From Lysinibacillus mangiferihumi (GTDB lineage Bacteria; Bacillota; Bacilli; Bacillales_A; Planococcaceae), in contig NZ_PYWM01000005.1 in NCBI RefSeq assembly GCF_003049665.1, positions 62,001 through 126,000 of the forward strand: a stretch of DNA of 64,000 nucleotides, read 5' to 3'. Below, one piece after another: positions 5,661 to 49,149 of the stretch. Numbering within the stretch: position 1 is the first letter of the stretch; every line of letters begins with the position of its first letter. The position numbers were made by a program, and so were the translations under genes. The notes beneath the pieces were generated by a model that saw nothing but the letters and a program-made list of their open reading frames with translations, was not told the DNA's origin and ran no database searches.

Positions 5661-5935
5661 AAAGAGCTTCCTGACTCAAGCATTTGTAAACAAATACCGT
5701 ACAGGAAACCCTATTTCCTCTAAACATACCTTCGAGATTAAGCCCCTATAAATAGGCACCTATCTGTTTAGCGTGTTATTAGTAATTATGTAAGTTCATT
5801 TTACAAAAGAATAATACGATTGTAAACAGATAAATTAGCGTGTATTTGAATAGCGATTTTATAGGTCAGAGGAATTATATAATTGGTTTATGAAGGGGAA
5901 TCGTGTTAATACATTCTTACAAAGGAGATTTGCAT

Positions 5936-8900
5936 ATGTTAAACTTCGATTTTTTAAAAGATAAACTACCATTTAATAGTTTCGCTAATGCCTGCTTTGA
6001 AGCGGAAAAGGCGATGCAAGTTAGCCCTGCAACGGTTGCGATTTTGTCGCGCCGTGCGTTGGAGCTTGCGGTGAAATGGGTGTATCAGTTTGATAATGAT
6101 GTGAAGGTACCTTATCGTGATAACCTTTCGAGTTTAATTCATGACAGTCACTTTTTAGGTATCATCGATGAAGAGCTGTTACCGATGATGAAATATGTCG
6201 TGAAGCTAGGCAATGCGGCTGTACATACAAATGTTGCGATAACGCGCGATGAGGCGGTACTTGCTCTTCATAATTTACATCAATTTGTTTCATGGATTGA
6301 TTATTGCTACGCAGAGGAATACACAGCGACTGATTTTGATGAAGCATTGTTATACAATGTGGATTACAAACGAGAGCGACCAGAGGAATTAAATGATTTA
6401 TACGAAAAGCTCAGTGCAAAGGATCAATCTCTTGAAGAATTACGTAAGCAAAATGAAGCACTTCGTGAAATGCTAACAGCAAACCGCTTAGAAGCACAAC
6501 AAGATTATGATTTTGATGTGGATACGATATCAGAATTCGAAACACGTAAACGCTATATCGACCTAGATTTAAAATTAGCAGGTTGGGAAATCGATAAAAA
6601 TGTTGAAGCAGAATATTCTGTAGCAGGAATGCCAAATGTAAAAGGTGAAGGCTATATCGATTATGTATTGCGCGGTACAAACGGCAAAATTTTAGCTATT
6701 GTTGAAGCGAAACGTACATCACGTGATTCGAAAGAAGGGCGTAACCAAGCGAAATTATATGCCGATTGTGTAGAGCAAGCGCAAGGATTGCGTCCGATTA
6801 TTTTCTATACAAACGGCTTTGAAACGTATATTTGGCATGATAATTACGCTGCTCGAAAAGTGTCGGGTTTTTATACACAAGACGAGCTTCAATTGTTAAT
6901 TGATCGCCGCCAATTAAAACAACCTTTAGATAATATTGAAATTAACGATGATATAACAAACCGCTACTATCAAAAAGAGGCGATTTTGGCGATTTGCGAT
7001 ACGTTCAGCAAAAATCAGCGTAAAGGCTTACTAGTCATGGCAACAGGAAGCGGTAAAACACGAACAGCTATTTCTTTAGTTGATGTGTTAACAAACAACC
7101 ATTGGATTAAAAATGTGCTATTCCTTGCAGATCGTACATCCCTGGTTAAGCAAGCGTTTCGTAACTTTAATACACTGTTACCAAACTTGTCATTAAGCAA
7201 TATGTTAGAGAAAAAATCAGACCCAGAAGCTGCGCGTATGGTGTTTTCTACGTATCCAACAATGATGAACGCTATCGATGAAGTAAAGCGTAAAGATGGC
7301 AATCGTTTATTTACAGTCGGTCATTTTGATTTAATTATTATCGATGAATCACATCGTTCCATTTATCAAAAATATAAAAGTATTTTTGATTACTTTGATG
7401 GGATGCTTGTCGGCTTAACAGCTACACCGAAAGATGAGCTAGACAAAAATACATATACAATTTTCGATTTAGAAAATGGTGTCCCTACCTTTGCCTATGA
7501 ACTAGCGAAAGCGGTGGAAGACAAGTATTTAGTTGATTATCGTACGCGTGAAACAACGATGAAAATTTTAGATGATGGTATTCGTTATGATGACTTATCA
7601 GAGGATGAGAAAAAAGAATTTGATGAGATTTTTGAAGACGATCCACAAGTGAAAGATATCGATAGCTCAGCAATTAACAACTTTGTGTTTAATAAAAATA
7701 CGATTGATCATGTGTTAAATGACTTAATGGAGCATGGCTTAAAAGTTGAAGGTGGAGACAAATTAGGAAAAACAATAATCTTCGCTAAAAACCATAAACA
7801 TGCAATGGCTATTAAAGAGCGCTTCGATTTAAAATTCCCTGAGTACGGAGGCAATTTTGCAGAAGTTATTGATTATAGCGTGGAATATTATCAAACATTA
7901 ATTGATGATTTTTCAACACCGGATAAGATGCCGCAAATTGCCATTTCAGTCGATATGCTCGATACAGGGATTGATGTGCCAGATGTATTAAACTTAGTGT
8001 TTTTCAAAAAAGTACGTTCGAAAACGAAGTTCTGGCAAATGATAGGACGAGGTACACGTTTACGTAAAGATTTATTCGGTCCAGGGATGGATAAAGAGTA
8101 CTTCTTAATTTTTGATTATTTAAGGAACTTCGAATATTTCCGTGAAAACGAAAAAGGAGAAGAAACAAAAATCTCCCAAACGTTAACGGAAAAGCTATTT
8201 AATTCGAAAGTAGACATTGTACGTGAATTACAGTCATTGCAATATCAAGAAGCACACTTTATTTCGTATCGTGAGCAGCTGTTGAAGGAGATTTTATCAG
8301 ATGTGCGCGCATTGAATGATGAAAATTTCCGAGTGCGTCAGTACTTGCAATATGTGCATAAATACCAAAACGAAGATAACTGGCAAGCATTATCAGTTGT
8401 ACAAACAAATGAAGTAAAAGAAAATGTTTCACCGTTAATTGTACCAATAGAGGATGATGAATTAGCCAAACGCTTTGACCTATTAATGCTGACAATTGAA
8501 TTAGCCAGCCTGCAATCAAATAATGCGACAAAACCAATTCGCCGTGTAGTAGATACAGCCGAAGCACTTTCAAAACTAGGTACAATTCCGCAAGTGTTGG
8601 CACAAAAAGATATCATCGATCAAGTACGTACAACAGAATTCTGGCAAGAAGCCACATTAGCTGATTTAGAAAAAGTACGTATGGCAATGCGTGATTTAAT
8701 TCGCTATATTGAAAGCTCAAATCAAAATATCTACTATACGGATTTCCAAGATGAAGTGATGACGGTAGCAGAAAATGCTTCTATTTTAAATGTTAACGAC
8801 CTACAAAGTTATCGCAAAAAGGTCGAGTACTACTTAAAGGAGCATCAACATGAAGATACGCTCGCAATTTACAAATTACGTAATAACAAGCCACTAACGA

Positions 8901-9274
8901 AGCAAGACGTTGATTACTTAGAACATATCTTATGGCAAGAGCTTGGATCGAAAGAGCAGTATGAAAAAGATTATGGCGATACACCTGTTACAAAGCTTGT
9001 TCGTAAAATCGTAGGTCTAGACCGTGAAGCTGCAATGGCTGCTTTCTCAACGTTCCTATCAGAGCAAAATCTAAACCTACAGCAATCCCAGTTCGTCGAG
9101 CTAATTATTGATTACATCGTGAAAAACGGTACGCTAGAGCGACAAGCATTGCAACAAGATCCATTTAGTTCAATAGGCGGAATAATGGTCGTTTTTAAAG
9201 AACAGTTGCCAAAAGCCCGCGGGATATTGGACATTATCGATAGCATTAATCGAAATGCGGAGGATATTTCATAA
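5936..9274 (+). CDS. hsdR: Type I restriction endonuclease subunit HsdR
   Basis: A 1112-residue motor and nuclease subunit. Order: N-terminal DUF4145-like domain (1 to ~120), a coiled region, a PD-(D/E)xK nuclease with EAK at 257-259, then an SF2 helicase with Walker A ATGSGKT at 369-375, DESH at 470-473, GLTATP, and IGRGTRLRKD, and a helical C-terminal part that probably contacts HsdM/HsdS. The start is the ATG at 5936, because AAAGGAGAT at 5921-5929 is correctly spaced; an in-frame start at 5903 lacks such a site and the duplicated copy begins at the same codon. Intact despite the upstream insertion; its own promoter probably lies in the 275 bases after the SIR2 gene. Confidence 0.94.
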   Translation: MLNFDFLKDKLPFNSFANACFEAEKAMQVSPATVAILSRRALELAVKWVYQFDNDVKVPYRDNLSSLIHDSHFLGIIDEELLPMMKYVVKLGNAAVHTNVAITRDEAVLALHNLHQFVSWIDYCYAEEYTATDFDEALLYNVDYKRERPEELNDLYEKLSAKDQSLEELRKQNEALREMLTANRLEAQQDYDFDVDTISEFETRKRYIDLDLKLAGWEIDKNVEAEYSVAGMPNVKGEGYIDYVLRGTNGKILAIVEAKRTSRDSKEGRNQAKLYADCVEQAQGLRPIIFYTNGFETYIWHDNYAARKVSGFYTQDELQLLIDRRQLKQPLDNIEINDDITNRYYQKEAILAICDTFSKNQRKGLLVMATGSGKTRTAISLVDVLTNNHWIKNVLFLADRTSLVKQAFRNFNTLLPNLSLSNMLEKKSDPEAARMVFSTYPTMMNAIDEVKRKDGNRLFTVGHFDLIIIDESHRSIYQKYKSIFDYFDGMLVGLTATPKDELDKNTYTIFDLENGVPTFAYELAKAVEDKYLVDYRTRETTMKILDDGIRYDDLSEDEKKEFDEIFEDDPQVKDIDSSAINNFVFNKNTIDHVLNDLMEHGLKVEGGDKLGKTIIFAKNHKHAMAIKERFDLKFPEYGGNFAEVIDYSVEYYQTLIDDFSTPDKMPQIAISVDMLDTGIDVPDVLNLVFFKKVRSKTKFWQMIGRGTRLRKDLFGPGMDKEYFLIFDYLRNFEYFRENEKGEETKISQTLTEKLFNSKVDIVRELQSLQYQEAHFISYREQLLKEILSDVRALNDENFRVRQYLQYVHKYQNEDNWQALSVVQTNEVKENVSPLIVPIEDDELAKRFDLLMLTIELASLQSNNATKPIRRVVDTAEALSKLGTIPQVLAQKDIIDQVRTTEFWQEATLADLEKVRMAMRDLIRYIESSNQNIYYTDFQDEVMTVAENASILNVNDLQSYRKKVEYYLKEHQHEDTLAIYKLRNNKPLTKQDVDYLEHILWQELGSKEQYEKDYGDTPVTKLVRKIVGLDREAAMAAFSTFLSEQNLNLQQSQFVELIIDYIVKNGTLERQALQQDPFSSIGGIMVVFKEQLPKARGILDIIDSINRNAEDIS

Positions 9275-9351
9275 TAAAATCTAGATGCGTTTTTTAATGT
9301 TAGTCACTATACAAAAAATTACGAATTCATTAGTAGAAGCGACAGAATCTT

Positions 9352-9678
9352 ATGAAGTTAAAACCTTTAAGGAACTTGAAAAAAAGAATTAGTCGTAGAA
9401 TCAAGCCTAAAATGCCGCAATTAAGGAAGTGGGGTATTATAAAAAAGGATACTACATTGAGTATTAAGGGAAGAACAAGTAGTGAAGAAACTATAGTGTC
9501 TGATAAGGAAGTTTCTTATCAAGGGAACAAGATGAAGTATAATGAATGGGGTCAGAAGGTCACGGGATGGTCAACAATTAATATTTACGAATGGGCATTG
9601 TTAGAAAAAGAAGAGCAAACTCTTACGTTAGCAGAGTGGCGTGAGAAAAAGATTGAAGAGGAAAATCAAAATAGTTAG
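9352..9678 (+). CDS. Small basic protein with DUF4357/RAMA-like tail, function unknown
   Basis: 108 residues. The first ~35 are strongly basic; the C-terminal half reads KMKYNEWGQKVTGWSTIN then IYEW and ends in a charged helix. The pattern of W/VTGW/N/EW resembles the C-terminal segment of DUF4357-type modules such as the one at the end of the GIY-YIG protein at 10977-11816. I cannot see a clear ribosome site before the ATG, so it may be the tail of a shortened gene. Its place between hsdR and another nuclease suggests a defence-island accessory; no activity can be assigned. Confidence 0.5.
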   Translation: MKLKPLRNLKKRISRRIKPKMPQLRKWGIIKKDTTLSIKGRTSSEETIVSDKEVSYQGNKMKYNEWGQKVTGWSTINIYEWALLEKEEQTLTLAEWREKKIEEENQNS

Positions 9679-9758
9679 ATGATTCATAATAACATAATTT
9701 AAATCATTGTACTGTAAATAGGCATTGTTTGGTGTAAATGCAAAAGCCTAAAAGAGTA

Positions 9759-9796
9759 AAAATGAGTTTCATGTTTATGAAGCTCATTTTTTATTT
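9759..9796 (+). terminator. Hairpin terminator
   Basis: AAAATGAGTTTC pairs with GAAGCTCATTTT (one G-T pair) and is followed by TTATTT. Apart from this, the 318 bases between 9679 and 9996 are AT-rich and show no gene. Confidence 0.7.
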
Positions 9797-9996
9797 AAAT
9801 AAAATTCCTAATTAGACATAATTTAGGTACATTTTTTTGGGAATTACCATTAAACTTAAAAAATTGGGTTTAAATTAAAATGTTTATAGTATTGCTATGT
9901 TGAAATTTTGTTCTTTATAAACATTATAGAACTATGTTATCGATCATAGTGTTATGAACTTAATGAGAAGAATGAATGATTTTGGGAGGCTGTGCT

Positions 9997-10881
9997 ATGA
10001 CGATGACACGTCCGTTACTAATAAATGAAGTTATAAATAATAAGGAACTTTGTGAGGTTTTCTTATGTGCACCTCAAGGAGGAATGCGTAAGTCAAATCG
10101 TACGAATACGTTAACGCTTATTTCAGATAAATCTAAGCTATATGATGATAAAGCTGTTAATGAAATATACCATTACACCGGTATGGGCCAGAATGGTGAT
10201 CAGAAGATGAGCAGGCAAAATTTGACGTTAGCACAATCAAATAGTAATGGAGTAGAAGTTCATTTCTTTGAGGTTTTGAAGAAAAAGGAATATACATACC
10301 GGGGACTAGTAGAACTTGCAGGTGAGCCCTATCAGGAACAGCAGAAGGATAAAGATGGATTGCTGCGACTTGTTTGGGTTTTTCCACTGCGTTTAAAAGA
10401 TAGCAAAGCAAAGCTTATGAAAATACAATCTATACCAAATGTAGTTAATGAACTAGAAGAAGAATTTAGAGCACTTCAGCAAGTTGAAAATTTACCAATA
10501 ACAGATACTGAAAAAGAACGCATGGTCAAAGCACGTATTGGTCAGGGAAAGTTTAAAAAGTTATTAATTGAACGTGAATGCAAATGTGCATTATGCGGTG
10601 TAACCGATCCTCGTGTTTTGATTGCTAGTCATATTAAACCTTGGAGTGTTTCTACAAATGAGGAGCGGCTTGATGAAAATAATGGTTTATTACTATGTCC
10701 TAATCATGATGCATTGTTTGATAAACATTTAATTTCCTTTGATGTACATGGGAAAATAGTTATTTCGCAAACGTTGGATGAAGTTACTCGCCTATTTTTG
10801 AATGTACATGATGAGCTGCGAGTTGAGTTAACTGAAAAGCAGTTGAGTTATATGGTAGGACATTACCAAGAATTAAATTGA
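9997..10881 (+). CDS. HNH endonuclease with YDG/SRA-like N-terminal domain
   Basis: About 294 residues. The N-terminal ~150 residues contain IYHYTGMGQNGDQ, FEVLKKKEYTYRGLVEL and LVWVFPLRLK, a pattern I associate with the SRA/YDG-type reader domains of McrA-like enzymes, which bind methylated or otherwise modified DNA. The C-terminal HNH domain is complete: CALCG, ASHIKPW, NEERLDENNG, LLCPNHD. GGGAGG at 9984-9989 fixes the start at 9997 rather than the earlier in-frame ATG at 9976. Inferred role: cutting DNA that carries foreign modification. It shares the HNH part with the protein at 80-997 but not the reader. Confidence 0.82.
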   Translation: MTMTRPLLINEVINNKELCEVFLCAPQGGMRKSNRTNTLTLISDKSKLYDDKAVNEIYHYTGMGQNGDQKMSRQNLTLAQSNSNGVEVHFFEVLKKKEYTYRGLVELAGEPYQEQQKDKDGLLRLVWVFPLRLKDSKAKLMKIQSIPNVVNELEEEFRALQQVENLPITDTEKERMVKARIGQGKFKKLLIERECKCALCGVTDPRVLIASHIKPWSVSTNEERLDENNGLLLCPNHDALFDKHLISFDVHGKIVISQTLDEVTRLFLNVHDELRVELTEKQLSYMVGHYQELN

Positions 10882-10976
10882 TTTATGAATTATTGTGATG
10901 TGTCGGGTATTGAGGGGCAAAATCTAGTGGTTGTGTGAAAGTAAATCGTGGATATGAATCAATAGGAGTGATTAAA

Positions 10977-11816
10977 ATGACTTTCGGCAAAACAATAAAA
11001 ATGTTTTTGATTGATGGAGACCCAAGTGGAAGATTAACGTGTGAATTATCTAACTGGACGGGGCTGGCGTATAGAATCCCTAGAACTGAAGTGAAAAAAT
11101 GCTCGGATCGCCCTAATTTGAATTCTACTGGTGTGTATATGTTATTTGGTCGAAATGTTGATGATAAAGAGGCTGTATACATAGGGGAAGCAGAGGAAGT
11201 TTATACTCGATTACAAAGCCATTTGCGTGAAAAAGATTTTTGGAATGAAGTGATTGTATTTATAAGTAAAGATGAGAATCTAAATAAAGCTCATATTAAG
11301 TACATTGAAAACAAGTTATATGAAAAAGCTAAAGTCGCCAATCGTTACTTTCTAATGAATGGCAATATCCCTCCCATGCCATCCATTTCTGAAGCAGACC
11401 GTGCAGAGATGGATGAATATATTAGCAATCTTGTAATGATGGTCAATACATTGGGTCATAAATTATTTGAAGAAATCAAAGATAGCTCAGAAGTTAATGC
11501 AGATGAGGTTTTATTTATAAAATCCACTCGTGGTGTGGATGCTAAAGGTATCCAAACACAAGAAGGTTTTGTCGTATTAAAGGGATCTAAAATTGCAAAT
11601 AGCATTGTAAATTCGTATTCAGAGCGTTTATTAGCAAAAAGAAATGATTTATTACATACAGAAAAAGTGAAAGTTGTTAATGATGAATTTGTTGTAATGG
11701 AAGATCTTTTATTTACTAGCCCTTCGGCAGCAGCTGATATTGTAACGGGGCGAAGTGCGAATGGGTTGACTGAATGGAAAGATAGGAATGGAAAAAGTCT
11801 GAAAGATTTAGTTTGA
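10977..11816 (+). CDS. GIY-YIG nuclease-domain protein with C-terminal DUF4357
   Basis: About 279 residues. GVYMLFG followed by AVYIGEAEEVYTRLQSH is the GIY-YIG signature (about residues 50-90). The C-terminal ~100 residues (FVVLKGSKIANS... SPSAAADIVTGRSANGLTEW) match DUF4357, a domain often attached to restriction-type nucleases. The ATG at 10977 follows TAGGAGTG at 10963-10970; the upstream GTG has no ribosome site. Same strand and only 95 bases after the HNH gene, so probably part of the same defence cluster. Whether it cuts DNA has to be inferred from the fold. Confidence 0.82.
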   Translation: MTFGKTIKMFLIDGDPSGRLTCELSNWTGLAYRIPRTEVKKCSDRPNLNSTGVYMLFGRNVDDKEAVYIGEAEEVYTRLQSHLREKDFWNEVIVFISKDENLNKAHIKYIENKLYEKAKVANRYFLMNGNIPPMPSISEADRAEMDEYISNLVMMVNTLGHKLFEEIKDSSEVNADEVLFIKSTRGVDAKGIQTQEGFVVLKGSKIANSIVNSYSERLLAKRNDLLHTEKVKVVNDEFVVMEDLLFTSPSAAADIVTGRSANGLTEWKDRNGKSLKDLV

Positions 11817-11919: not shown

Positions 11920-12492
11920 GTGTTAAAAAATCAAATTGAATCATTAATAAATGAGCAAGCCAATAGTAAATTACTAGATGTAGAAAAGACTTACGCCCAA
12001 AAGCACGAATTGTTAGATGAGGATGCAACGGTAGAAACAATTTCTTTACCATTTGACGTGATTGAACGTTGCCTTAAGGAAACGGAAGAATTACTAGCGG
12101 AAGAAACGGGTTCTTTTCTAACAAAACCTGTGCATTATTTAAAAGAGCATGCGAATGAATTTATGTATGTGACGTCTGAACGTTTGGATGTGATTCGTGT
12201 GGATTCGCTTGCGCTTGAATTTGATGGGGCGTTTGGTGTGTACAGTGCCTTGTTTGGACTGCGATTGCAAAAGAAGTATAGTGCATTTTTGCATTCCTAT
12301 TTTACAGCACATTTGCAACATGAGCAGATGACCTATAGTGCGGTATTTTCTGGGGAAGATGGGCTTTGGGAAGTGAATCTTGCGTTAGATGCGCTGGATG
12401 GATTTAGTGAGCAGCAGCCGTTTGATGAAGTGTTAGCACAATTATATTGTCTTGTTTTTGGGCTTCTTGAAGAACTTGAGGCGAGCGTATAG
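11920..12492 (+). CDS. Conserved hypothetical protein
   Basis: 190 residues, GTG start, acidic and soluble, with no signal peptide or membrane segment. It resembles a Bacillales family sometimes labelled branched-chain amino acid aminotransferase, but the length is far too short for that enzyme and no PLP-binding lysine motif is visible, so I do not use that name. The C-terminal part (GEDGLWEVNLALD... FGLLEELE) looks like a small alpha/beta fold. It is followed by its own terminator and seems unrelated to the neighbours. Confidence 0.6.
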   Translation: MLKNQIESLINEQANSKLLDVEKTYAQKHELLDEDATVETISLPFDVIERCLKETEELLAEETGSFLTKPVHYLKEHANEFMYVTSERLDVIRVDSLALEFDGAFGVYSALFGLRLQKKYSAFLHSYFTAHLQHEQMTYSAVFSGEDGLWEVNLALDALDGFSEQQPFDEVLAQLYCLVFGLLEELEASV

Positions 12493-12510
12493 TCAGTGAC
12501 TTTTTCATTG

Positions 12511-12552
12511 TGTCCAACATGGTCTAATAAAGACTTCGTTGGACATTTTTAA
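12511..12552 (+). terminator. Rho-independent terminator
   Basis: TGTCCAAC and GTTGGACA form the outer stem, with GTCT/AGAC inside, followed by TTTTTAATCTTTTC. It ends the hypothetical gene. The rest of 12553-12791 is AT-rich leader without a visible gene. Confidence 0.85.
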
Positions 12553-12791
12553 TCTTTTCAATCCTTATTTTCAATTTAACCCTTATACTAATTTGAGAAT
12601 AATGGAAGTAAATAAATCATACCATTCTAAACAACCATTCGAAAAAGGGGGATTTTCGCAAAAAAATGGTAAGTCTGTAATACAAGAATAGACAATTAAT
12701 TAAAAATAATTAGAAAAAAATAAAAAAATATAGTATGATTGGTATCAAGAATTTTCCTTAAAAAGAGTGAGGTTTTTCTTTAAATTTTAAA

Positions 12792-12809
12792 AAACTAAAC
12801 GGTCAGTTT
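12792..12809. promoter_or_regulatory. Putative TetR-type operator upstream of the MFS gene
   Basis: AAACTAAACGGTCAGTTT is an imperfect palindrome (AAACT/AGTTT arms). It sits just before the RBS of the MFS gene. A related element, sharing AAACGG and TCAGTTTT, occurs at 14145-14163 before the TetR gene. Autoregulated exporter/TetR pairs commonly use this kind of site; binding is inferred. Confidence 0.6.
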
Positions 12810-12829
12810 TTATAGGGGGTGAATTTTAA

Positions 12830-14134
12830 TTGGTTCGAGTATTGTTTGAAAAGGTTAAAATGTCAAAGTCATTTTTCAGCATGAATAGATCATTTATTTT
12901 ATTTGGTGTGGCAGCTCTTTTTCTTTATTTAACGAATCAGTTCTATATGCTTGGTCAAATAAATAAGTTGCTTGAGATTACGAATTCAACAGTTCTGTTA
13001 GCTAGTGTATTAATGGTTATGGTCATACCAAGATTAGTAATACTGCCTTTAGCGGGAATTTTAACAGATAAATATAACGAAAAAACTCTCATGTTATTTG
13101 GATTTATAGGACTGACAATATTGTTAGGGGCAATGGGAATTATTGAACAGATGGATCTCCTGTCGTTAAAAGTATTAATGATATTTGCAGGTGTTTTTGG
13201 AGGAATCAGTGCCGTTATTTTACCTTCGACATTTTCTATTATTCCTAAAGTGGTTAATCAAAACAATCTACCAAAAGCTAATGCTGCAATTCAATTAATT
13301 AACCAGTTAACAATTTTTATAGGGCCTGCAATTGCTGGTATATTATTAGGTATTATAAAACTAAAATACTACTATATCGTCTTAAGTTTCATGATGTTTT
13401 TATCAGTAATATTAATCTACTTTTGCAAATTTACAAAGTTGGACAATGGAAGTGAAAACTTTGAACAACTAGAGAAACAGGCACAGCGTAATAAAGGTAT
13501 TAAAGGTTACAAGGTTATTTTTAGTACCCCTATGTTGTTATTATTATTATTGTTTACGGCCGTATTAAACTTAGGTGTTGCAGGTCCACAACAAATAGGT
13601 CTACCTATATTGATTGATAAAGAATTAAAACTAGGAACTAAAGAATTGGGGTACTTATTGTCAGTTTTAGGGCTGGGTTCTATTGTAGGATCAGCGCTAA
13701 TTGGTTTTTTCAGTAAAAGAGTGAATTTATTATTTTCATTATCCGTATTAGGTATTTTTTTTAGTTTTTTGTGGACTTTTATTGTAAGACCAGAACATTT
13801 TATAATAATTTGCGTATTGTTAGCTTTGTCAGGGGTAGCAATAGGCAGTATCAATGTTCTTTTTATTACCTTGCTTCAACTCCATAGCCCACAGGAGATT
13901 TTAGGGAAAGTAATGAGTATCCAATTAATGGGGTCGGTTGGATTACAACCTTTGTCCTTTCTTATCACGGGGATAGTAATAGACAATTATAGCTTACAAA
14001 CTACATTTTTATTAGGTGGATGTAGTATTTTTATTATATCTATCATTTTATTTCTAATGTTTATGAAAGGTAAAAAAAGAAATAAAAAGGAAAAAGAGGG
14101 AAAATCGTTGACTAATTTTTCTGAACAATGTTAA
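12830..14134 (+). CDS. MFS-family exporter of the peptide cluster
   Basis: 434 residues with about 12 hydrophobic segments and a basic cytoplasmic tail (KGKKRNKKEKEGK), typical of a major facilitator drug or peptide exporter. The loop after the second helix (DKYNEKTLM) fits the MFS motif A region. The TTG at 12830 follows AGGGGGTG at the right distance; an ATG at 12860 is the alternative. It lies directly before the TetR gene, two precursor peptides and modification enzymes. The likely job is export of, or self-protection against, the cluster product; substrate cannot be read from sequence. Confidence 0.8.
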   Translation: MVRVLFEKVKMSKSFFSMNRSFILFGVAALFLYLTNQFYMLGQINKLLEITNSTVLLASVLMVMVIPRLVILPLAGILTDKYNEKTLMLFGFIGLTILLGAMGIIEQMDLLSLKVLMIFAGVFGGISAVILPSTFSIIPKVVNQNNLPKANAAIQLINQLTIFIGPAIAGILLGIIKLKYYYIVLSFMMFLSVILIYFCKFTKLDNGSENFEQLEKQAQRNKGIKGYKVIFSTPMLLLLLLFTAVLNLGVAGPQQIGLPILIDKELKLGTKELGYLLSVLGLGSIVGSALIGFFSKRVNLLFSLSVLGIFFSFLWTFIVRPEHFIIICVLLALSGVAIGSINVLFITLLQLHSPQEILGKVMSIQLMGSVGLQPLSFLITGIVIDNYSLQTTFLLGGCSIFIISIILFLMFMKGKKRNKKEKEGKSLTNFSEQC

Positions 14135-14144
14135 AATTTTTATA

Positions 14145-14163
14145 GAAACGGAATAGTCAGTTT
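14145..14163. promoter_or_regulatory. Second putative TetR operator
   Basis: GAAACGGAATAGTCAGTTT lies between the MFS gene and the TetR gene. On the reverse strand it starts AAACTGAC like the first operator. The spacing inside the site differs by about one base, so the exact consensus is uncertain. Confidence 0.45.
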
Positions 14164-14193
14164 TATTTATTGAATAGCTTAAGGGAGTTTCAT

Positions 14194-14799
14194 ATGCCTA
14201 AATTATCAGAGGATAAAAAAATAGAAAGAAAAAAGAAGATTTTAACTGCGGCACTTAATGAATTTTCCGAAAAAGGATATTCTGCAACGTCTGTAGATGA
14301 CATTATTAATAATGCCAACATTAGTAAGGGATTAATATATACGTATTTTAAAAGCAAAGAGGAAATCTTCTTGCAACTAGCTGAGTATTGGGAAGAAATG
14401 ACCGATCAACGAACAGTACTAAATTTTGAATTCCCTAAAGGATTTACTTTAACGGAAAAATTAATTACTGTTTGGGATGGAATTGTGGACACTTGGACTT
14501 TAGAAAATTTACAATTTGCACGCATACAATTTGAATTTTGGTTTGAGTCTTCCAAAATACCACAATTAAAAGAAATAATGAAGAAAAAATCCAATACTAG
14601 CTTCCAAATTATTGAAAAAATCATTGTAGAGCATAGCCCATCAATAGATAGAAATTTGCTTCAAGCATTTGTTAGATTATGGTGGTCACAGGTAGACGGC
14701 TTAGTAATTTATTATGTAAGTCATTCAAAGTTACCTGACCCTAAGGAAATGGAAAATATAAGAAGGTTAATTAAAAAGATGTGTGAAATCCTAGAATAA
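14194..14799 (+). CDS. TetR/AcrR-family transcriptional regulator
   Basis: About 201 residues. The N-terminal HTH is clear: ILTAALNEFSEKGYSATSVDD then ISKGLIYTYFKSKEE. The C-terminal ligand-binding domain is helical and tryptophan-rich. AAGGGAG at 14181-14187 supports the ATG at 14194. It sits between the exporter and the precursor peptides, all on one strand, with related palindromes before both the exporter and itself, so it probably represses the cluster until a ligand, perhaps the product or a lipid, is sensed. Confidence 0.85.
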   Translation: MPKLSEDKKIERKKKILTAALNEFSEKGYSATSVDDIINNANISKGLIYTYFKSKEEIFLQLAEYWEEMTDQRTVLNFEFPKGFTLTEKLITVWDGIVDTWTLENLQFARIQFEFWFESSKIPQLKEIMKKKSNTSFQIIEKIIVEHSPSIDRNLLQAFVRLWWSQVDGLVIYYVSHSKLPDPKEMENIRRLIKKMCEILE

Positions 14800-14827
14800 T
14801 TTAAATTATTTAAAGGAGGTGATACAT

Positions 14828-14929
14828 ATGAAAAAGCAAACAAAAAATCAGCCAAAGCCACTTACAGTTGAAGAGTTGATTAAGCTAGAGGCAGATCGTA
14901 ATGTAATTCGCTGTGTTATCCGCTGCTAG
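14828..14929 (+). CDS. Candidate RiPP precursor peptide 1 (33 aa)
   Basis: A short gene behind a near-perfect RBS (AAAGGAGGTGAT at 14812-14823). The peptide starts MKKQTKNQPKPLTVEELIKL and ends ADRNVIRCVIRC, stop TAG at 14927-14929. The first ~24 residues look like a charged, helical leader (LTVEELIKLEADR), and the last eight are a perfect VIRC-VIRC repeat, a likely core. The next gene is an almost identical copy, and arginase-like, acyltransferase-like, SAM-fold and protease genes follow, so I call it a ribosomal peptide precursor. No match to a named RiPP class is recognised. Confidence 0.82.
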   Translation: MKKQTKNQPKPLTVEELIKLEADRNVIRCVIRC

Positions 14930-14965
14930 TGAACATTGAATTATTTACTCAAGGAGGTGATACAT

Positions 14966-15067
14966 ATGAAAAAACAAACAAGTAATCAGCCAAAACCACT
15001 TACAGTTGAAGAATTAATTAAGCTAGAGGCAGATCGCAATGTAATTCGTTGTGTTATCCGCTGCTAA
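14966..15067 (+). CDS. Candidate RiPP precursor peptide 2 (33 aa)
   Basis: A second copy 138 bases downstream of the first, with the same RBS (AAGGAGGTGAT). It starts MKKQTSNQPKPLTVEELIKL and also ends NVIRCVIRC, stop TAA. Compared with copy 1, six sense codons differ silently and only codon 6 changes amino acid (Lys to Ser); the last 27 residues are identical. That pattern implies selection on the peptide, not a chance open frame or a very recent copy. It is followed by a hairpin and the maturation genes. Confidence 0.82.
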   Translation: MKKQTSNQPKPLTVEELIKLEADRNVIRCVIRC

Positions 15068-15074
15068 TAGCTAT

Positions 15075-15104
15075 AGACAGAAGGAGTTGCCGCTCTTTCT
15101 GTCT
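15075..15104 (+). terminator. Hairpin between precursor and maturation genes (attenuator)
   Basis: AGACAGAAGGAG pairs with CTCTTTCTGTCT over 12 positions (one G-U pair) around TTGCCG. The following GTCTTAATAT is a poor T-tract. I infer partial termination or mRNA-end protection, which would make precursor mRNA more abundant than enzyme mRNA, as is common in peptide clusters. Confidence 0.65.
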
Positions 15105-15127
15105 GTCTTAATATATGGGGTGATAGT

Positions 15128-15682
15128 TTGTTTTTTACAGATGTATTCTATTTTTTATTATACATTATTTTAATGATAATAATTCATGAATTTGGTCATG
15201 TAATTGCAATGTTATTAATAGGTGGTAAAATTAAAGGCTTTGAATTTTCTTTTTCATCTGTGAAAGGAAAATTTCAATACCCGAAAAAAATGAATATCCC
15301 CAAATTTCTATTTTTTACTTTAAACGGAGTACTATTTCAATTATTAGTCTCTTTGATTGTCATTATTACATGGAAAAGTACATCCTTAAGTATCTTTTCT
15401 ATTTTTTATCTATGTGTTATTGCTATAAATTTTGTTCCTTTATCAATCACAGACGGTTCTTTTGTTTATAAAATGTACCCTGCGCTAAAGTTGAAAGTAT
15501 TGCTATGGTCAATTGCAATATTACTGATTATTATATCATCAATTGGCATTGTCGTTTTATGGGAAAGTAGTTTTTATTTTAAATGGATAATGATTATTGT
15601 TTATTTACTACTTCTTACGATGACTTTAAGAAGAATAGGATATTTATATTTGGAGGATAAGAAAATTGACCATCACATATGA
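15128..15682 (+). CDS. M50-family membrane metalloprotease (candidate leader peptidase)
   Basis: 184 residues with about five or six hydrophobic helices. HEFGH at residues 20-24 in the first helix is the zinc-binding HExxH of site-2 proteases, and NFVPLSITDG at 101-110 matches the M50 NxxPxxxxDG third-ligand motif. No PDZ domain; the small size resembles YydH-type M50 proteases of peptide clusters. A TTG at 15128 follows GGGGTGAT. Its end overlaps the next gene by 17 nt. Likely role: cutting the leader from the modified peptide at or in the membrane. An alternative is regulated proteolysis of a membrane signal protein, but no such partner is present. Confidence 0.82.
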   Translation: MFFTDVFYFLLYIILMIIIHEFGHVIAMLLIGGKIKGFEFSFSSVKGKFQYPKKMNIPKFLFFTLNGVLFQLLVSLIVIITWKSTSLSIFSIFYLCVIAINFVPLSITDGSFVYKMYPALKLKVLLWSIAILLIIISSIGIVVLWESSFYFKWIMIIVYLLLLTMTLRRIGYLYLEDKKIDHHI

Positions 15683-16709
15683 AATCATATCAAAAGATGA
15701 TGAAAAAATAGTATTAAAAGATATCGAAAAGAATGCATTTTATAAGATTGAAAATACAACACCATTTAACATAAATGTTAGTCCATTTTTAAAAGAAGTA
15801 AAACCTATCTTTAACTATATTTTTCTAGATGAAGTACCAGATGTGTTGTTATTTGGAGTTCCTTTTAATCAAGGAAGTCGCGCTCCACAATCCCAAGTTA
15901 ATCAATTTCCTCAATTGTTAAGAGAAGCCTCTTTAAAACTGACACAGTTTAATCACTATCCTATATCAAAACCTTTAAACTTTTACGAATTAGATACCCA
16001 ACAAAAAATAGATTGTGGAAGGGTTTTAGATTTAGGAGATGTTAAAAGTTTCGATAATCATAGTGAGCGGGTTGCCATTCAGAAAGTTTCTAGTTACTGT
16101 GTAAACTCAACATTACCTTTTATATGTATAGGAGGCGATCATTCTTATACATATGATATTATTTCTTCATTCTCTAAAATGGACAAAAAGATTGCCATAT
16201 GGGTAGTTGATGCACACAATGATTTATTTGGTAATCCAGAAAATTTAGATCATGGGAATGTTTTTTTTCATATTGCACAATTGCCGTTTGTTGAAGCCAT
16301 TGTTCAAATTGGAGGAAGGGGATTCAGAACAGATAGTCAGTTAGTTCAACATCCAAAAGTAGTTCAAATAACTAAACAACAAGCATCAAAGGAAAAAATA
16401 ACTGAACTATTAGAGAAGTATAGTCACTTAGACGGCTATTTATCGATTGATATGGACGCTTTAGATCCTATTTATTTCCCATATGTCGATTTTAGAGTCC
16501 CTAACGGTTTTAATAATAATGAGTTACTAGAGATAATCAATTTAATTTTTAATTTCTCAAATATAAAAGCGGTTGATATTGTTGAAGGATCAGTTGGAGG
16601 TAATAGTAGTGGTGGTGACTATGACATACCATTACATATATTAATAAGGATTTTAAATAATTTGTTTGTTCATAAAGGAGTGAAAAAGATAAATGGAATC
16701 ATCCAATAA
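15666..16709 (+). CDS. Arginase-family ureohydrolase (candidate peptide arginase)
   Basis: 347 residues, ureohydrolase fold. All expected manganese ligands are present: GGDH with His159, DAHND with Asp182, His184 and Asp186, and SIDMD with Asp262 and Asp264. Free-arginase and agmatinase are ~300 residues; here ~55 extra N-terminal residues (VLKDIEKNAFYKIEN...) precede the fold and could bind the precursor. Family knowledge: OspR and related RiPP arginases turn peptide Arg into ornithine. The two precursor cores each hold two Arg next to Cys, so I infer that reaction. TTG start at 15666 behind GGAGG (15652-15656), overlapping the protease gene; the next gene overlaps by 17 nt. A metabolic arginase or agmatinase is the alternative. 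Confidence 0.82.
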   Translation: MTITYEIISKDDEKIVLKDIEKNAFYKIENTTPFNINVSPFLKEVKPIFNYIFLDEVPDVLLFGVPFNQGSRAPQSQVNQFPQLLREASLKLTQFNHYPISKPLNFYELDTQQKIDCGRVLDLGDVKSFDNHSERVAIQKVSSYCVNSTLPFICIGGDHSYTYDIISSFSKMDKKIAIWVVDAHNDLFGNPENLDHGNVFFHIAQLPFVEAIVQIGGRGFRTDSQLVQHPKVVQITKQQASKEKITELLEKYSHLDGYLSIDMDALDPIYFPYVDFRVPNGFNNNELLEIINLIFNFSNIKAVDIVEGSVGGNSSGGDYDIPLHILIRILNNLFVHKGVKKINGIIQ

Positions 16710-17592
16710 ATTACAATTTGATTATTTAATGGCTTTCTCTAATATGATAAAAGAACTAAGATATTTTGGGAATTATTCACCGGTAAATGTCTTCAACCAG
16801 TATTCTGAGTATATAGCAATTTGTGATCAATATAGAGTAAATAATAATTTTCATAATGGTTTTAAAAGGATTGAGGGATTCAGTATTGAAAAACTTCAAC
16901 AATTATATGCTGAAAAGGGTTTTGCCATAATCGGTATGCATTATGGTGCATATAGACCCGTACAATATAGAATTACTGATGAATTAATTAAAGTCCATCC
17001 TGATAAAAAAATTTTATTAGTAGTTGATGAAGAATCTTATAATAGTGAAAGTGCTTCGATAGAAGTAGTAAAAACATATAATAGACAAAATGTTGAAATG
17101 GTGATTGCAGAAAAGTCCACTTCCGCATTAAAAATAGTACGTCATTTAAAAGATGGTGGTGTAGTATTCCTTTATTTAGATGGAATGACTGGGTATGGGG
17201 AAGATAAGTACCCTATTCAATTACCATTTATTAGTTCAGAAATTAAAATTAGAAGTGGTCTTTTTAGATTGTTAGAAAAAGTAAAGGTTCCAGTGATAGG
17301 GGTTATTACGCCTGAAATAGATAAAATTCTAATTTCACTTCCAATTAAAACGAATAGTGTTAGCGCAACTGCATCGAATGTATTAAGTTTTTTTAGACCA
17401 ACGATATTAAAGGATCCATCTCTTTGGAGATTATGGTATAGGCATCATATGTTTAGCGAAAATTATCCTAATGTTTTAGACTACTCAAATGAAAATAAGG
17501 ATCACGAAGATTGGATTTGTGAAGATATTTCTCCAACTTTAGTCTTGAATAAAGAAACAGGTGATATTTATCAAAAAGTGGGAAATAATTGA
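16693..17592 (+). CDS. LpxL-like (lysophospholipid-type) acyltransferase
   Basis: 299 residues. The segment IIGMHYGAYRP (His83) corresponds in position to the HX4(D/E) box of the lipid A acyltransferase family, and FLYLDGMTG..., LPFISSEIKIRSGLFRLLEK, KVPVIGVIT follow the same family's order (DQ.G, vPFFG.., G.a.LA, apvvP). At the usual acidic position there is Arg88, so the active site may be modified. The family is rare in Gram-positives without lipid A. Context suggests acylation of a peptide side chain such as ornithine; this is inference. The AAAGGAGTG RBS lies inside the arginase gene, giving a 17-nt overlap. Confidence 0.6.
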   Translation: MESSNKLQFDYLMAFSNMIKELRYFGNYSPVNVFNQYSEYIAICDQYRVNNNFHNGFKRIEGFSIEKLQQLYAEKGFAIIGMHYGAYRPVQYRITDELIKVHPDKKILLVVDEESYNSESASIEVVKTYNRQNVEMVIAEKSTSALKIVRHLKDGGVVFLYLDGMTGYGEDKYPIQLPFISSEIKIRSGLFRLLEKVKVPVIGVITPEIDKILISLPIKTNSVSATASNVLSFFRPTILKDPSLWRLWYRHHMFSENYPNVLDYSNENKDHEDWICEDISPTLVLNKETGDIYQKVGNN

Positions 17593-18586
17593 CGATAATA
17601 TTGTGTTATGTGACAGAGAGAGTGGGAAATTAACAAATTTAAAACATTCTAAAATAGTAAGAAAAAAATTAACTTATAAATATTGGGATTACTTAGCGTG
17701 GGCAGTAGCTACAATTCCAGATAATAAAGTGTTATCCGTAGGATTTGGGGCTGGCACTTTCGTTCAGCTATTAGATAAATGGGGAGTTTGTGCAAGCGGG
17801 GTTGGGTTAGAGATAGATGATAGTTTTGATGATTTTAATAGGTTATACGCTAATTATAATGTAATGTACGGTGATTTTAGAGAGAGTTTACGAAATATTT
17901 ATACAGATTTCAAGACCATTATAGTAGATGTATACAATGAACAAGGATATGTAGAAGAAGCATATGATATTGAATGGATTGAAAAGTATCTTTCTTTAAA
18001 GAATAAAGATGGCATACTAATACTACATTGTTTGGATATTTTAGGAACCTTGACAGCGGCTGGTATATCAATACCAAAGGTTTCAACAATACTTAATTCT
18101 TTAATAAGTTCGGTTAGAAAAATTACAAACGAAGAAATATATATTGTACCATTGTGGACAAGTTACTTATTATGGATAGGTCCCTTTCCCGAACGAATAG
18201 AGACCAATGTAAAAGAATTAAAATGGTTAGATAAATTCTTTAGACTTCGAATGTGTTCGGTAGAGAGTCTAGGTAAGGATTTACCTGTTCTTGATACACC
18301 TTGGTCTTATGAAAGATTAGAATTAGTTAATACATCAATAGTTGAGTCTTTAAAAGAAAATGATAATGAATACGATAAATATTCTAATCTTATCAAAATA
18401 TTAAGTAATGTATTACAAAAAGAACCCACAATTGATGAAATCGACAAGAGCATTGATATGTTGGAAAATTTAAATATAAATTCAAATGCTAAAATACATC
18501 TATATAGTTTTTTATTAGCAATGCAAGAAGAATGGGGAATGGCTGAAGATGTTTTAAAAGCTAATCAATTAACCATTCATATTTAA
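17561..18586 (+). CDS. Spermidine-synthase-like SAM-fold enzyme
   Basis: 341 residues. A Rossmann SAM motif is present: VLSVGFGAGTF (Gly61, Gly63, Gly65), then GLEIDD with the acidic residue for the ribose, YGDF, and IIVDVYNEQG. This layout matches polyamine aminopropyltransferases and their methyltransferase cousins. The last ~100 residues are helical and unlike spermidine synthase. The GTG at 17561 overlaps the acyltransferase end by 32 nt and has a weak RBS; a GTG at 17603 is possible. In this cluster it may methylate or aminopropylate ornithine or cysteine on the peptide; a radical role in polyamine metabolism is not supported by neighbours. Confidence 0.65.
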   Translation: MIFIKKWEIIDDNIVLCDRESGKLTNLKHSKIVRKKLTYKYWDYLAWAVATIPDNKVLSVGFGAGTFVQLLDKWGVCASGVGLEIDDSFDDFNRLYANYNVMYGDFRESLRNIYTDFKTIIVDVYNEQGYVEEAYDIEWIEKYLSLKNKDGILILHCLDILGTLTAAGISIPKVSTILNSLISSVRKITNEEIYIVPLWTSYLLWIGPFPERIETNVKELKWLDKFFRLRMCSVESLGKDLPVLDTPWSYERLELVNTSIVESLKENDNEYDKYSNLIKILSNVLQKEPTIDEIDKSIDMLENLNINSNAKIHLYSFLLAMQEEWGMAEDVLKANQLTIHI

Positions 18587-18755
18587 AAGAAAAGTACGTT
18601 GTAGGAATGAAGGCTCTTTATTCTACTAAAATATAAATCATTTTCTATAGACAAACCTTTTAACAGTAGCTTCAAGAAAGCAATAACGATGATTGCTAGT
18701 GTTCGAAGATGTTTTTATTTCGTATCTATCTAATAATTCCTTATAATTTCAACCC

Positions 18756-18803
18756 AACGTCAAAACCTTAATGCAATAGGTTTTGACGTTATTACGTTTT
18801 TTG
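18756..18803 (+). terminator. Terminator of the peptide cluster
   Basis: AACGTCAAAACCT and AGGTTTTGACGTT form a perfect 13-bp stem, followed by ATTACGTTTTTTG. It closes the operon that starts at the MFS gene. The rest of the 462-base gap (18587-19048) is AT-rich and shows no gene. Confidence 0.9.
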
Positions 18804-19048
18804 CCTAACTTTTTGCATCAGAAATGTTGGTCATTACTAAAGACATTATTAAAGTATTAAAACTAATCTATTAAATCTTTGTAATTGGAATGTACTTCTC
18901 TTTTGTTCTTTATTGTATCAATGCATTGATTTATTTTGCTATTGGATTATTTTGCAACAGGAAATAATACCCTATAATAAAAAATTCTTTCAAAGAGTAA
19001 ATTGCCCTTTTTTGAATTAAACTATTATGAAAGGGGGGATTACCCAAT

Positions 19049-19897
19049 ATGCATTCAATAAATAAAATAGGTGATTGTTTTTGGTATATGACGCCTATAG
19101 CGGAAACGGATCGTCCTATTCTAGGGATGGTAGTTGGTCAAAACAAAACATTAATGATTGATGCAGGGAATTCGGAGGAGCATGCACACTATTTTCAGGA
19201 AGAACTTTTAAAAATGGGCGTTCCTAAACCTGATATGGTCGTTTTAACGCATTGGCATTGGGATCATATTTTTGGACTCTCTGCATTACGTCAAATGGTG
19301 TCTATTTCTTCGGAAAAAACAAAAACAGCGATGGAGCAATTAATTCCATTTTCTTGGTCAGATGAGGCACTTGATGCACGTGTGAAGGAAGGTATAGAAA
19401 TTGAATTTTGTGCCAGAGCTATTAAAGAAGAATTCAAGGATCACCGAGATATTCAGATTGTTTTGCCGGATGTCACGTTTGATAAACGGGTGGAGATTGA
19501 CCTAGGTGGTGTCAGTTGTATCCTTCAACATGTTGGAGGGGATCATGCGGCCGACTCTGTTGTGGTCTATATAAAAGAAGAAAAGATTCTGTTCCTTGCT
19601 GATTGTATTTATCCTAATCTGTATGCTGAAAAAGAACATTATACAGTTAAGGAAACGCTTCGTCTGTTGGCTGAATTAGAGCAATTTGATGCGGATACAT
19701 ATATTCCTTCGCATCAGCAGCCTATAACAAAAGAAGCGTTTAATCAAGAAGTAGCGCTGCTTAGAACGATTGCTACATATACCGATAGTTGTGATGGTGA
19801 TTCACAAAAAATTATGCAAGCATATAAAAAGCATGTAAAAAGAGAACTAACAGAAGATGAAATTGAAACTATCTCTGACTTTGTGAATGGTTATTAA
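19049..19897 (+). CDS. MBL-fold metallo-hydrolase
   Basis: 282 residues of the metallo-beta-lactamase fold. THWHWDH at residues 67-73 is the HxHxDH zinc motif; GGDHAADS (second His), DCIYPN (bridging Asp) and PSHQQP (third His) follow in order. The family hydrolyses varied esters, thioesters or lactams; the substrate is not deducible. GGGGGG-type RBS at 19033-19039 precedes the ATG. It is monocistronic, with a terminator before and after. Confidence 0.85.
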   Translation: MHSINKIGDCFWYMTPIAETDRPILGMVVGQNKTLMIDAGNSEEHAHYFQEELLKMGVPKPDMVVLTHWHWDHIFGLSALRQMVSISSEKTKTAMEQLIPFSWSDEALDARVKEGIEIEFCARAIKEEFKDHRDIQIVLPDVTFDKRVEIDLGGVSCILQHVGGDHAADSVVVYIKEEKILFLADCIYPNLYAEKEHYTVKETLRLLAELEQFDADTYIPSHQQPITKEAFNQEVALLRTIATYTDSCDGDSQKIMQAYKKHVKRELTEDEIETISDFVNGY

Positions 19898-48150: not shown

Positions 48151-49149
48151 ATGTTTATCCAACCTGAATGGCAATGGAAACAAGAAAACGGCTCAGGCAT
48201 GCATCAGTGGATTAAGCAAAAGCAAAACCCACATGCAAATGATGTAGATATTATTGTCTATGGAGCCTTATTATCTTATGCGAGCGATCCTATGAAAAAA
48301 GCGCAGTATCCTACTGCTTTTCGGAAAGCGTGGTCAAGCTTTCAATCCTATAATTTAGACGAACAAGTAGATTTGCGTTCATTAGCAATTGTTGATATTG
48401 GAGACGTGGCAATCGACTCGACCAATCGCATGCTTTCGGAATCTGCTATTGAGGCAGCCGCTGAAAACTTAAGTATCGCTTATCAGAAAAGCTTCACTTG
48501 CCTGATTGGTGGTGACCATGCAATCACGGCTTGTTCATTAAGAGGGATTAAAAATGCTTTTCCGAATGAGCGAATTGGCATTATTCAACTTGATACGCAT
48601 TTAGATGCAAGAAATCAAGAAGATATAGGTTTAGCAATGAATTCACCGATTCATCAACTAATCGCATCAGGCGTTGTAGAGGGGAAACATATGTATAACG
48701 TTGGCTTGCATGGCTTTTTTAATTCACCAGAAATGATTTATTATGCTCGTGAGCAAGGAATTCATATGATTACGTTAAAGCAGATGCGACGTGATGGTAT
48801 CCAGTTGACTATCCGTGAAATGCTACGTCAGCTTATGTATGAGGTAGATAGGATTTATGTATCCGTGGATTTAGATGCATTGGATATTACGTTTGCCCCA
48901 GACGTACCTGCAGCCACACCTGGTGGATTAACGGCCTATGAATTATTTGATATTTTAAAGCTGATTGGTGAAAATGAAGGTGTACGGCATATTGACTTTA
49001 TTTACCCTGATCCAAAACAAAATGAACTTCGCTTAGAAACGGTGAAAACGGGGGTTACTGCATTTTTGCAATGGCTGACCGGCATTCAATTGGATCATCG
49101 TAATCGTATATCAAGGAAAGAAAAGGCAGGCTATGGAGCTACTCCATAG
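48151..49149 (+). CDS. hutG: Formimidoylglutamase
   Basis: 332 residues, ureohydrolase family. GGDHAIT, DTHLDAR and SVDLDALDI give all metal ligands. It hydrolyses formiminoglutamate to glutamate and formamide. hutH and hutU, needed for the earlier steps, are not in the window. Distinct from the arginase-like gene at 15666: its N-terminus and motif spacing fit HutG. Confidence 0.92.
   Translation: MFIQPEWQWKQENGSGMHQWIKQKQNPHANDVDIIVYGALLSYASDPMKKAQYPTAFRKAWSSFQSYNLDEQVDLRSLAIVDIGDVAIDSTNRMLSESAIEAAAENLSIAYQKSFTCLIGGDHAITACSLRGIKNAFPNERIGIIQLDTHLDARNQEDIGLAMNSPIHQLIASGVVEGKHMYNVGLHGFFNSPEMIYYAREQGIHMITLKQMRRDGIQLTIREMLRQLMYEVDRIYVSVDLDALDITFAPDVPAATPGGLTAYELFDILKLIGENEGVRHIDFIYPDPKQNELRLETVKTGVTAFLQWLTGIQLDHRNRISRKEKAGYGATP

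Follow-up and report, generated by a model that had tools for sequence, protein, structure and literature searches.

A candidate RiPP family with Arg-Cys cores, a PF00491 arginase and an LpxM/PatA-fold enzyme in Lysinibacillus mangiferihumi

Peptide arginases that form ornithine in ribosomally synthesised and post-translationally modified peptides (RiPPs) include OspR, FlmR and OhkR of pfam12640 and, in enteropeptin, the PF00491 arginase KgrD, and the selidamides bear fatty acyl groups on ornithine (PMC12703449, in excerpt). Furthermore, M50 proteases take part in the processing of epipeptides and pearlins (PMC10885120 and PMC12871923, in excerpt), and several radical S-adenosylmethionine (SAM) RiPPs (RaS-RiPPs) are under Rgg control (PMC13361665, in excerpt). 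In this study, we analysed a 64,000-nucleotide stretch of the Lysinibacillus mangiferihumi genome (contig NZ_PYWM01000005.1, positions 62,001 to 126,000; hereafter the window), which holds a cluster of twin precursor genes and predicted tailoring genes including a PF00491 arginase. A preliminary description had set out two 33-codon genes with strong ribosome sites, four overlapping genes downstream, and an exporter and a TetR regulator upstream, and this layout was confirmed gene by gene over 12830-18586 (Table 1).

The explanation that we favour, with a probability of roughly 0.58 for the whole of it, is a RiPP with an Arg-Cys (RC) core. More specifically, the twin 33-residue precursors would have their core arginines turned into ornithine by the PF00491 arginase, which would leave a side-chain amine for an LpxM/PatA-fold enzyme to acylate. 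The subtype found in the window would go one step further, with a spermidine-synthase-fold SAM enzyme alkylating an amine within the VIRCVIRC core. A small M50 protease likely separates leader from core at a putative cleavage site in the membrane, and a major facilitator superfamily (MFS) protein likely exports the product. That the cluster represents a new RiPP family, as the preliminary description proposed, is very probable and is strongly supported, because the peptide recurs in other genomes next to these enzymes.

Precursor peptides and the loci that carry them

The window precursors read MKKQT[K/S]NQPKPLTVEELIKLEADRNVIRCVIRC, with 33 codons each and VIRCVIRC at the C-terminus, and the ribosome site ahead of each gene is AAGGAGGTGATACAT-ATG. 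Both open reading frames (ORFs) are contained in a 116-nt direct repeat that is 93% identical. The copies differ by six synonymous codons and one nonsynonymous codon, as expected for protein-coding genes under constraint.

Relatives were anchored on a profile of the acyltransferase-like enzyme, which has no Pfam family (profile A2, later A6/A11), and gene presence across all 26 loci was called by BLAST. Of 4457 word-sharing candidates in the protein database, 16 proteins matched at E<=1e-3, one of them being that of the window; this is an undercount, because one of the cluster types defined below (type D) was largely missed. The named species collection gave five loci, also an undercount because two short patterns were used: L015 (Lysinibacillus metagenome-assembled genome RH52_bin.043), L016 (Bacillus stratosphericus), L017 (Priestia taiwanensis), L018 (an Atribacteria metagenome-assembled genome) and L019 (Alkalihalobacillus pseudalcaliphilus). 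With the L. mangiferihumi genome counted in each sample, the acyltransferase was present in 7 of 261 genomes at family level, 3 of 398 at phylum level and 16 of 398 at class level. It was also found in 2 of 18 genomes in the family of genome G968 and 2 of 59 in its order (both already in the set), and in the single genome of the family of G657. A mobile origin was considered and rejected: no acyltransferase relative was found in viral contigs (two short patterns) or plasmids (two queries, E limit 1e-5).

The loci fall into four types. Type A (five loci: the window and L015-L018) has the M50 protease, arginase, acyltransferase, SAM enzyme and MFS protein, with precursors ending in (V/I)RC-V(V/I)RC and a TetR regulator in the four Bacilli loci. 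Type B (seven loci: L009, L019, L030, L031, L032, L036 and L050) has the same set minus the SAM gene and is the simplest arginase-bearing set, of five genes (precursor, M50, arginase, acyltransferase and MFS); its cores include NGDKITVIRC, NGDVVIIRCAR, NASGCCASGRCASGRC and EGDVVRCGDVVRCGDVIRC. Type C (L060 and L061) has M50, acyltransferase and MFS genes, no arginase, and five peptides, such as one ending ...LAVVRHAFKCTCTVSKK. Type D (12 loci: L034, L035, L037 and L051-L059) has the acyltransferase, an arginase in 9 of 12, and neither M50 nor precursor in the stretch examined. A Pfam run covering ten L055 proteins and three L034 proteins showed a carrier-protein pathway in type D, with an ornithine/diaminopimelate/arginine-decarboxylase-type pyridoxal-phosphate enzyme, an acyl carrier protein and a ketoacyl-synthase III-like enzyme, along with acyl-CoA-dehydrogenase-like, MATE, M16 and ATP-grasp proteins. 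An MFS gene was present in all 14 RiPP-type loci (types A to C), 12 of them by BLAST with two MFS queries, and L060 and L061 by Pfam. On another contig (C129), the L. mangiferihumi genome carries a second cluster, of type B, with M50, arginase (34% identical), acyltransferase and MFS genes and a 29-residue peptide ending VIRC; no SAM gene was found in it.

With the full profile, a homologous peptide of 27-39 residues was found in 14/14 distinct loci having both the M50 protease and the LpxM/PatA-fold enzyme. The preliminary description had called for a search for VIRC-type peptides near the same families elsewhere, and had held that absence of the peptides beside homologous enzyme operons would speak against it; the search recovered the peptide beside these enzymes in other genomes. 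In a leave-one-cluster-out test, the peptide ranked first among all ORFs of at least 20 codons in the 12/12 loci tested, with E values from 2.7e-19 to 4.1e-4, the weakest being those of L050, L018 and L036. For this test, the profiles for the window and L015, which are near-copies, left out one another's peptides, as did those for the near-copies L009 and L030; L016 and L017 each stayed in the other's profile, as did the two type C loci.

The peptide is also specific to such loci. No precursor was found in any of the 12 type D loci (one chance match, E 0.0056, in L051) or in five loci around other arginases of the L. mangiferihumi genome, whose three precursor copies all lie within its two clusters. 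The class and G365-family scans scored up to 20 candidates per genome. In the class sample, the precursor was present in 6 of 398 genomes, exactly the six carrying the M50-type cluster, and was not found in the sample's 10 type D genomes; because peptides from these six genomes or from their near relatives were part of the profile, the informative part is the absence elsewhere. In the family of G365, it was found in 1 of 394 genomes, G365 itself. The leave-one-out test, together with the class scan, led us to reject an operon for free arginine accompanied by chance small ORFs. Taken together, a short predicted precursor gene is linked to predicted tailoring enzymes across genomes, which is the pattern by which a RiPP is recognised.

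The arginase and the residues of the core

In the seven cluster arginases aligned, H159, D182, H184, D186, D262 and D264, which we take to be the six arginase metal ligands, are invariant together with E307, bearing out the claim of an arginase-fold protein with all metal ligands. At E<=1 the window enzyme matches PF00491 only and not the OspR-type pfam12640, and its NCBIfam scores are far below the cut-offs for arginase (52.7 vs 227.6) and agmatinase (81.9 vs 174.3). The cluster arginases of types A, B and D form one group, separate from six other PF00491 proteins of the L. mangiferihumi genome with support 100/98, there being long branches among those six.

The residues of the core follow the arginase. 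Arg is found in the core of 8/8 distinct precursors with an arginase and 0/5 without, and Lys in 1/8 and 5/5, respectively. The eight arginase-type precursors contain 16 core Arg, 15 of them directly before Cys. In the arginase-less genomes, ureohydrolases elsewhere are only distant (E 8.8e-16 or weaker), compared with 1.3e-139 to 2.8e-80 in three arginase-bearing cluster genomes. This contrast supports an unmasking of an amine for acylation by conversion of Arg to ornithine, Lys giving an amine directly. Furthermore, a small peptide ORF accompanies four arginase loci of the L. mangiferihumi genome, and this raises the plausibility of a peptide substrate. The claim that core Arg becomes ornithine is therefore upheld indirectly, through the Arg/Lys contrast and the three PF00491 loci with a small peptide ORF beyond the window. 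Judging from these sequence comparisons, we consider it likely that the arginase acts on the precursor core.

Two of these are further RiPP-like loci. L010 (contig C59, 664-6403) has a 48-residue peptide ORF, a Cupin_8/JmjC protein, a PF00491 arginase, a radical SAM protein and an ABC transporter. L011 (contig C69, 1124-8293) has a 46-residue peptide ORF, a PF00491 arginase, an Asn synthase, an MbnB/TglH/ChrH-family enzyme, an M3 peptidase and, by eye, an MFS-like protein. Their arginases are two of the six outside the cluster group. The window itself holds a further PF00491 protein at 48151-49149 (E 8e-47), also outside the cluster clade.

The other enzymes, alternative readings and control of the cluster

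Table 1. Features of the cluster in the window.
Feature	Position	Strand	Evidence
Candidate TetR site AAACGGTCAGTTT, upstream of MFS gene	12797..12809	.	resembles site before tetR
MFS exporter (predicted)	12830..14134	+	PF07690 E 4.3e-45
Candidate TetR operator AAACGGAATAGTCAGTTT, upstream of tetR	14146..14163	.	similar sites precede tetR in L015, L016, L017
TetR-type regulator	14170..14799	+	PF00440 E 1.5e-17
Precursor peptide 1, MKKQTKNQPKPLTVEELIKLEADRNVIRCVIRC	14828..14929	+	ORF and ribosome site; leave-one-out hidden Markov model (HMM) E 8.5e-17
Precursor peptide 2, MKKQTSNQPKPLTVEELIKLEADRNVIRCVIRC	14966..15067	+	ORF and ribosome site; direct repeat; leave-one-out HMM
15-bp hairpin between precursor and enzyme genes	15073..15106	+	folding vs shuffles
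Small M50-type membrane metalloprotease (predicted precursor cleavage)	15128..15682	+	HEFGH; PF13398 E 2.9e-4, PF02163 E 3.7e-3
PF00491 arginase-family enzyme, predicted peptide arginase	15666..16709	+	PF00491 E 4e-32
LPLAT-fold acyltransferase-like enzyme, HX4R instead of HX4(D/E)	16693..17592	+	no Pfam family, best E 0.039
Spermidine-synthase-fold SAM enzyme (predicted methyl- or aminopropyl-transferase)	17561..18586	+	PF01564 E 0.017, under gathering score

Successive longest ORFs overlap by 17, 17 and 32 nt from the M50 gene through the arginase and acyltransferase genes to the SAM gene, and the 60-nt gap between precursor 2 and the M50 gene contains the hairpin. Among 10 proteins scanned around the cluster (11920-19894), no Pfam match to radical SAM and no PEARL (peptide aminoacyl-tRNA ligase; LanB-like) ligase was found. 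Upstream of the cluster (5903-11816) lie genes for a Type I restriction-like subunit, an HNH (HNH_2) protein and a PDC-S14/DUF4357 protein.

A structure model gives the acyltransferase-like enzyme the LpxM/PatA (lysophospholipid acyltransferase, LPLAT) fold; searches of the PDB by sequence with acyltransferase profiles returned chance-like matches only. LpxL-type and other LPLAT enzymes carry an HX4(D/E) motif, and here His83, taken as the motif His by sequence pattern rather than by residue-level overlay, is followed by Arg88 (HX4R) in 21/21 family sequences aligned. The enzyme is thus LpxL-like, as first described, in its modelled fold and not in its motif. On the strength of that fold, we lean slightly towards acylation at the ornithine amine. 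L034 (9422-11647) and L035 (7731-9956) encode a 741-residue ORF that fuses an HX4R-type acyltransferase with an M16-type domain, and downstream of the type B cluster in L019 (11743-15094) lie FabA-like, ketoacyl synthase and short-chain dehydrogenase/ketoreductase (SDR/KR)-type genes, a possible acyl-chain supply.

The SAM enzyme is modelled with a spermidine-synthase fold plus extra C-terminal helices, and scores below the PF01564 gathering threshold (window 15.1 vs 22.9 bits; L018 17.2). The claim of a spermidine-synthase-like enzyme therefore stands as to fold, while its membership of the core set does not, the gene being absent from 9/14 loci. Its action on the same core is fairly probable; methyl and aminopropyl transfer cannot be told apart from sequence. 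The gene tracks the (V/I)RC-V(V/I)RC spacing, being present in 5/5 loci with it and 0/9 others. The idea that a doubled core requires the SAM enzyme was dropped, because L050 (three RC) and L036 (two RC) lack the gene. In the acyltransferase tree, type A needs two changes, with L018 falling apart from the rest at an open fork (81/79), so that a single origin of type A is not shown. Elsewhere in the window, a SAM riboswitch lies at 58977-59081 (RF00162, 81.5 bits). As to the M50 protease, the preliminary assignment is corroborated by an HExxH motif and a downstream Asp, H20, E21, H24, D109 and G110 being invariant in 7/7 sequences aligned.

Several points weigh against the favoured pathway. The Fisher values (0.0008 and 0.005) overstate the Arg/Lys contrast, because there are only two arginase-less genomes and four of the five peptides come from one; the core boundary was the author's choice, the peptides are related, the lineages are few, and L009-type cores also carry one Lys. 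The acid of the acyltransferase motif is missing, so the reaction may differ from ordinary acyl transfer, and the M50 scores are under the Pfam gathering thresholds (21.1 vs 26 bits for PF13398, 17.1 vs 27.2 for PF02163). No RRE-type leader-binding domain was reported by Pfam or NCBIfam. The favoured pathway gives no role to the one Cys that is the sole invariant position in the aligned precursors. The same arginase and acyltransferase pair occurs in 9/12 peptide-less type D clusters, and so pairing alone is no proof of a peptide substrate; in addition, a differently built type D peptide could be missed by a profile built from types A-C. Finally, the hairpin between precursor and M50 genes is weak in L017 and L060 (6 and 13 of 200 shuffles as low) and not significant in L061 and L019 (124 and 134).

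Some of these points feed directly into a variant of the proposal, in which the product is the same kind of RiPP and the LPLAT-like enzyme S-acylates Cys, acylates the new N-terminus or performs a non-acyl reaction. The uniform HX4R motif, the single invariant Cys and the retention of the acyltransferase in type C without an arginase would fit such a change of site; the adjacency of arginase and acyltransferase genes in 12/12 RiPP-type loci with an arginase, and the Lys in cores where the arginase is absent, speak for the side-chain amine, and we regard the variant as unlikely.

Another reading, which we hold to be improbable, treats the precursor as a carrier on whose C-terminal RC repeats small products, such as an acyl-ornithinyl-cysteine unit, are built and then cut off by the M50 protease, in the manner of pearlins. 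The cores end at an RC unit in all arginase-type loci except L019, and the unit is repeated in type A, L036 and L050 (VIRC twice, GDV(V/I)RC three times and ASGRC twice). The M50 proteases TglG and TmoG remove C-terminal residues from scaffold peptides (PMC10885120, in excerpt), and in type D the enzyme pair stands alongside a carrier protein. However, the scan of 10 proteins showed no PEARL-type ligase, the L019 core terminates in RCAR, type C peptides are not Cys-terminal and the L009-type core has one RC only. A broader proposal, improbable as a whole, has the arginase and HX4R LPLAT-fold enzyme as a module that would unmask an amine from a guanidine and acylate it, interchangeably on two kinds of carrier. 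The module would act at the C-terminal Arg-Cys repeats of a very small ribosomal peptide in types A and B, on Lys-bearing cores in type C without the arginase, and in an acyl-carrier-protein pathway in type D. One small signal, a lipidated ornithine-cysteine unit, would result from each RC repeat after excision by the M50 protease, and in type B the adjacent Rgg/RNPP receptor would sense it.

The least probable reading, in which the arginase, acyltransferase and SAM enzyme turn free arginine into a small molecule (such as an N-acyl-ornithine or polyamine) and the peptide is only a co-regulated signal, can appeal to the solved PF00491 relatives, which among the matches listed are free-substrate ureohydrolases by name, to the enzyme pair of type D with no peptide found, and to RNPP/Rgg regulators suggestive of peptide signalling, but it runs against the strict co-occurrence of the peptide with the M50 and acyltransferase genes, the dependence of core Arg on arginase presence, and the distance of the enzyme from the NCBIfam arginase and agmatinase cut-offs.

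The regulator genes beside the clusters differ between subtypes. In type A Bacilli, similar GTCAGTTT-type sites precede tetR in 4/4 loci, with related TetR proteins in L015, L016 and L017; a candidate TetR-type site before the MFS gene is present in the window and was not found by pattern in L015 or L017. A regulator with Rgg_C or RNPP_C stands beside 6/7 SAM-less arginase clusters, four of these six being near-copies and the L050 regulators being left out: Rgg_C in the near-copies L009, L030, L031 and L032, and RNPP_C in L019 and L036, where it is divergent from the precursor genes. This adjacency suggests production under peptide quorum sensing. Inspection by eye of the regions upstream of four rgg genes showed no conspicuous conserved short ORF for a pheromone. 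With the repeated RC core and these regulators, a signalling role would be directly testable. As for the window hairpin, 0/200 mononucleotide shuffles folded as low, and z was -3.27 against dinucleotide shuffles for 14925-15135; a terminator scan did not list it, and it is likely an attenuator or RNA-stabilising stem. Hairpins placed in this way commonly keep precursor levels above those of the enzymes. At the same place, two or fewer of 200 shuffles were as low in 10/14 loci, four of them near-copies.

Comparison with described systems

Searches of open-licence PMC papers returned no description of this gene set. If the favoured pathway is correct, the cluster would define a RiPP family that dispenses with radical SAM, YcaO and lanthipeptide enzymes and a second, unrelated route to lipidated ornithine peptides (PF00491 and LPLAT fold vs pfam12640 and GNAT, the Gcn5-related N-acetyltransferase type). 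In addition, an LpxM/PatA-fold enzyme whose catalytic motif is altered would gain a peptide role, and a spermidine-synthase-fold RiPP enzyme might be a source of N-methyl- or aminopropyl-ornithine; neither was seen in the literature searched.

Selidamide acyltransferases are of the GNAT type, whereas the window enzyme has a predicted LPLAT fold. The selidamides kamptornamide and phaeornamide, and OspR of landornamide, share the step from Arg to ornithine, and in selidamides a fatty acyl group is then placed on the delta-nitrogen of the ornithine, as far as the excerpts describe them. However, OspR-type arginases belong to pfam12640 and the window arginase to PF00491, and selidamide leaders are of the NHLP/Nif11 type, while the window leader has about 25 residues and the peptides have no Pfam match at E<=1. 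Compared with LpxL, LpxM and PatA, the window enzyme has HX4R in place of HX4(D/E) and sits in a RiPP-type cluster of Bacilli; compared with spermidine synthases and aminopropyltransferases, the SAM enzymes of the window and L018 fall below the PF01564 gathering score, and extra C-terminal helices are present.

In epipeptides (EpeX/EpeP) and pearlins (TglG/TmoG), a membrane M50 protease likewise processes the precursor, according to the excerpts, and the modifying enzymes of the window are unrelated to theirs. Enteropeptin (kgr), compared by family and description, is similar in that the PF00491 enzyme KgrD acts on an Arg next to a Cys in a small precursor, and its ornithine is N-methylated (PMC12703449, in excerpt); its control by short hydrophobic peptide (SHP)/Rgg in S. 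thermophilus is a further likeness (PMC13361665, in excerpt). Unlike enteropeptin, the window cluster has no match to a radical SAM enzyme (the thiomorpholine former) or Fe-S methyltransferase, and it has LPLAT-fold and spermidine-synthase-fold enzymes, an M50 protease and repeated RC cores. The first step, that of a peptide arginase, is thus known and is here assigned to the PF00491 family, and the second steps use folds not reported for RiPPs in the literature searched.

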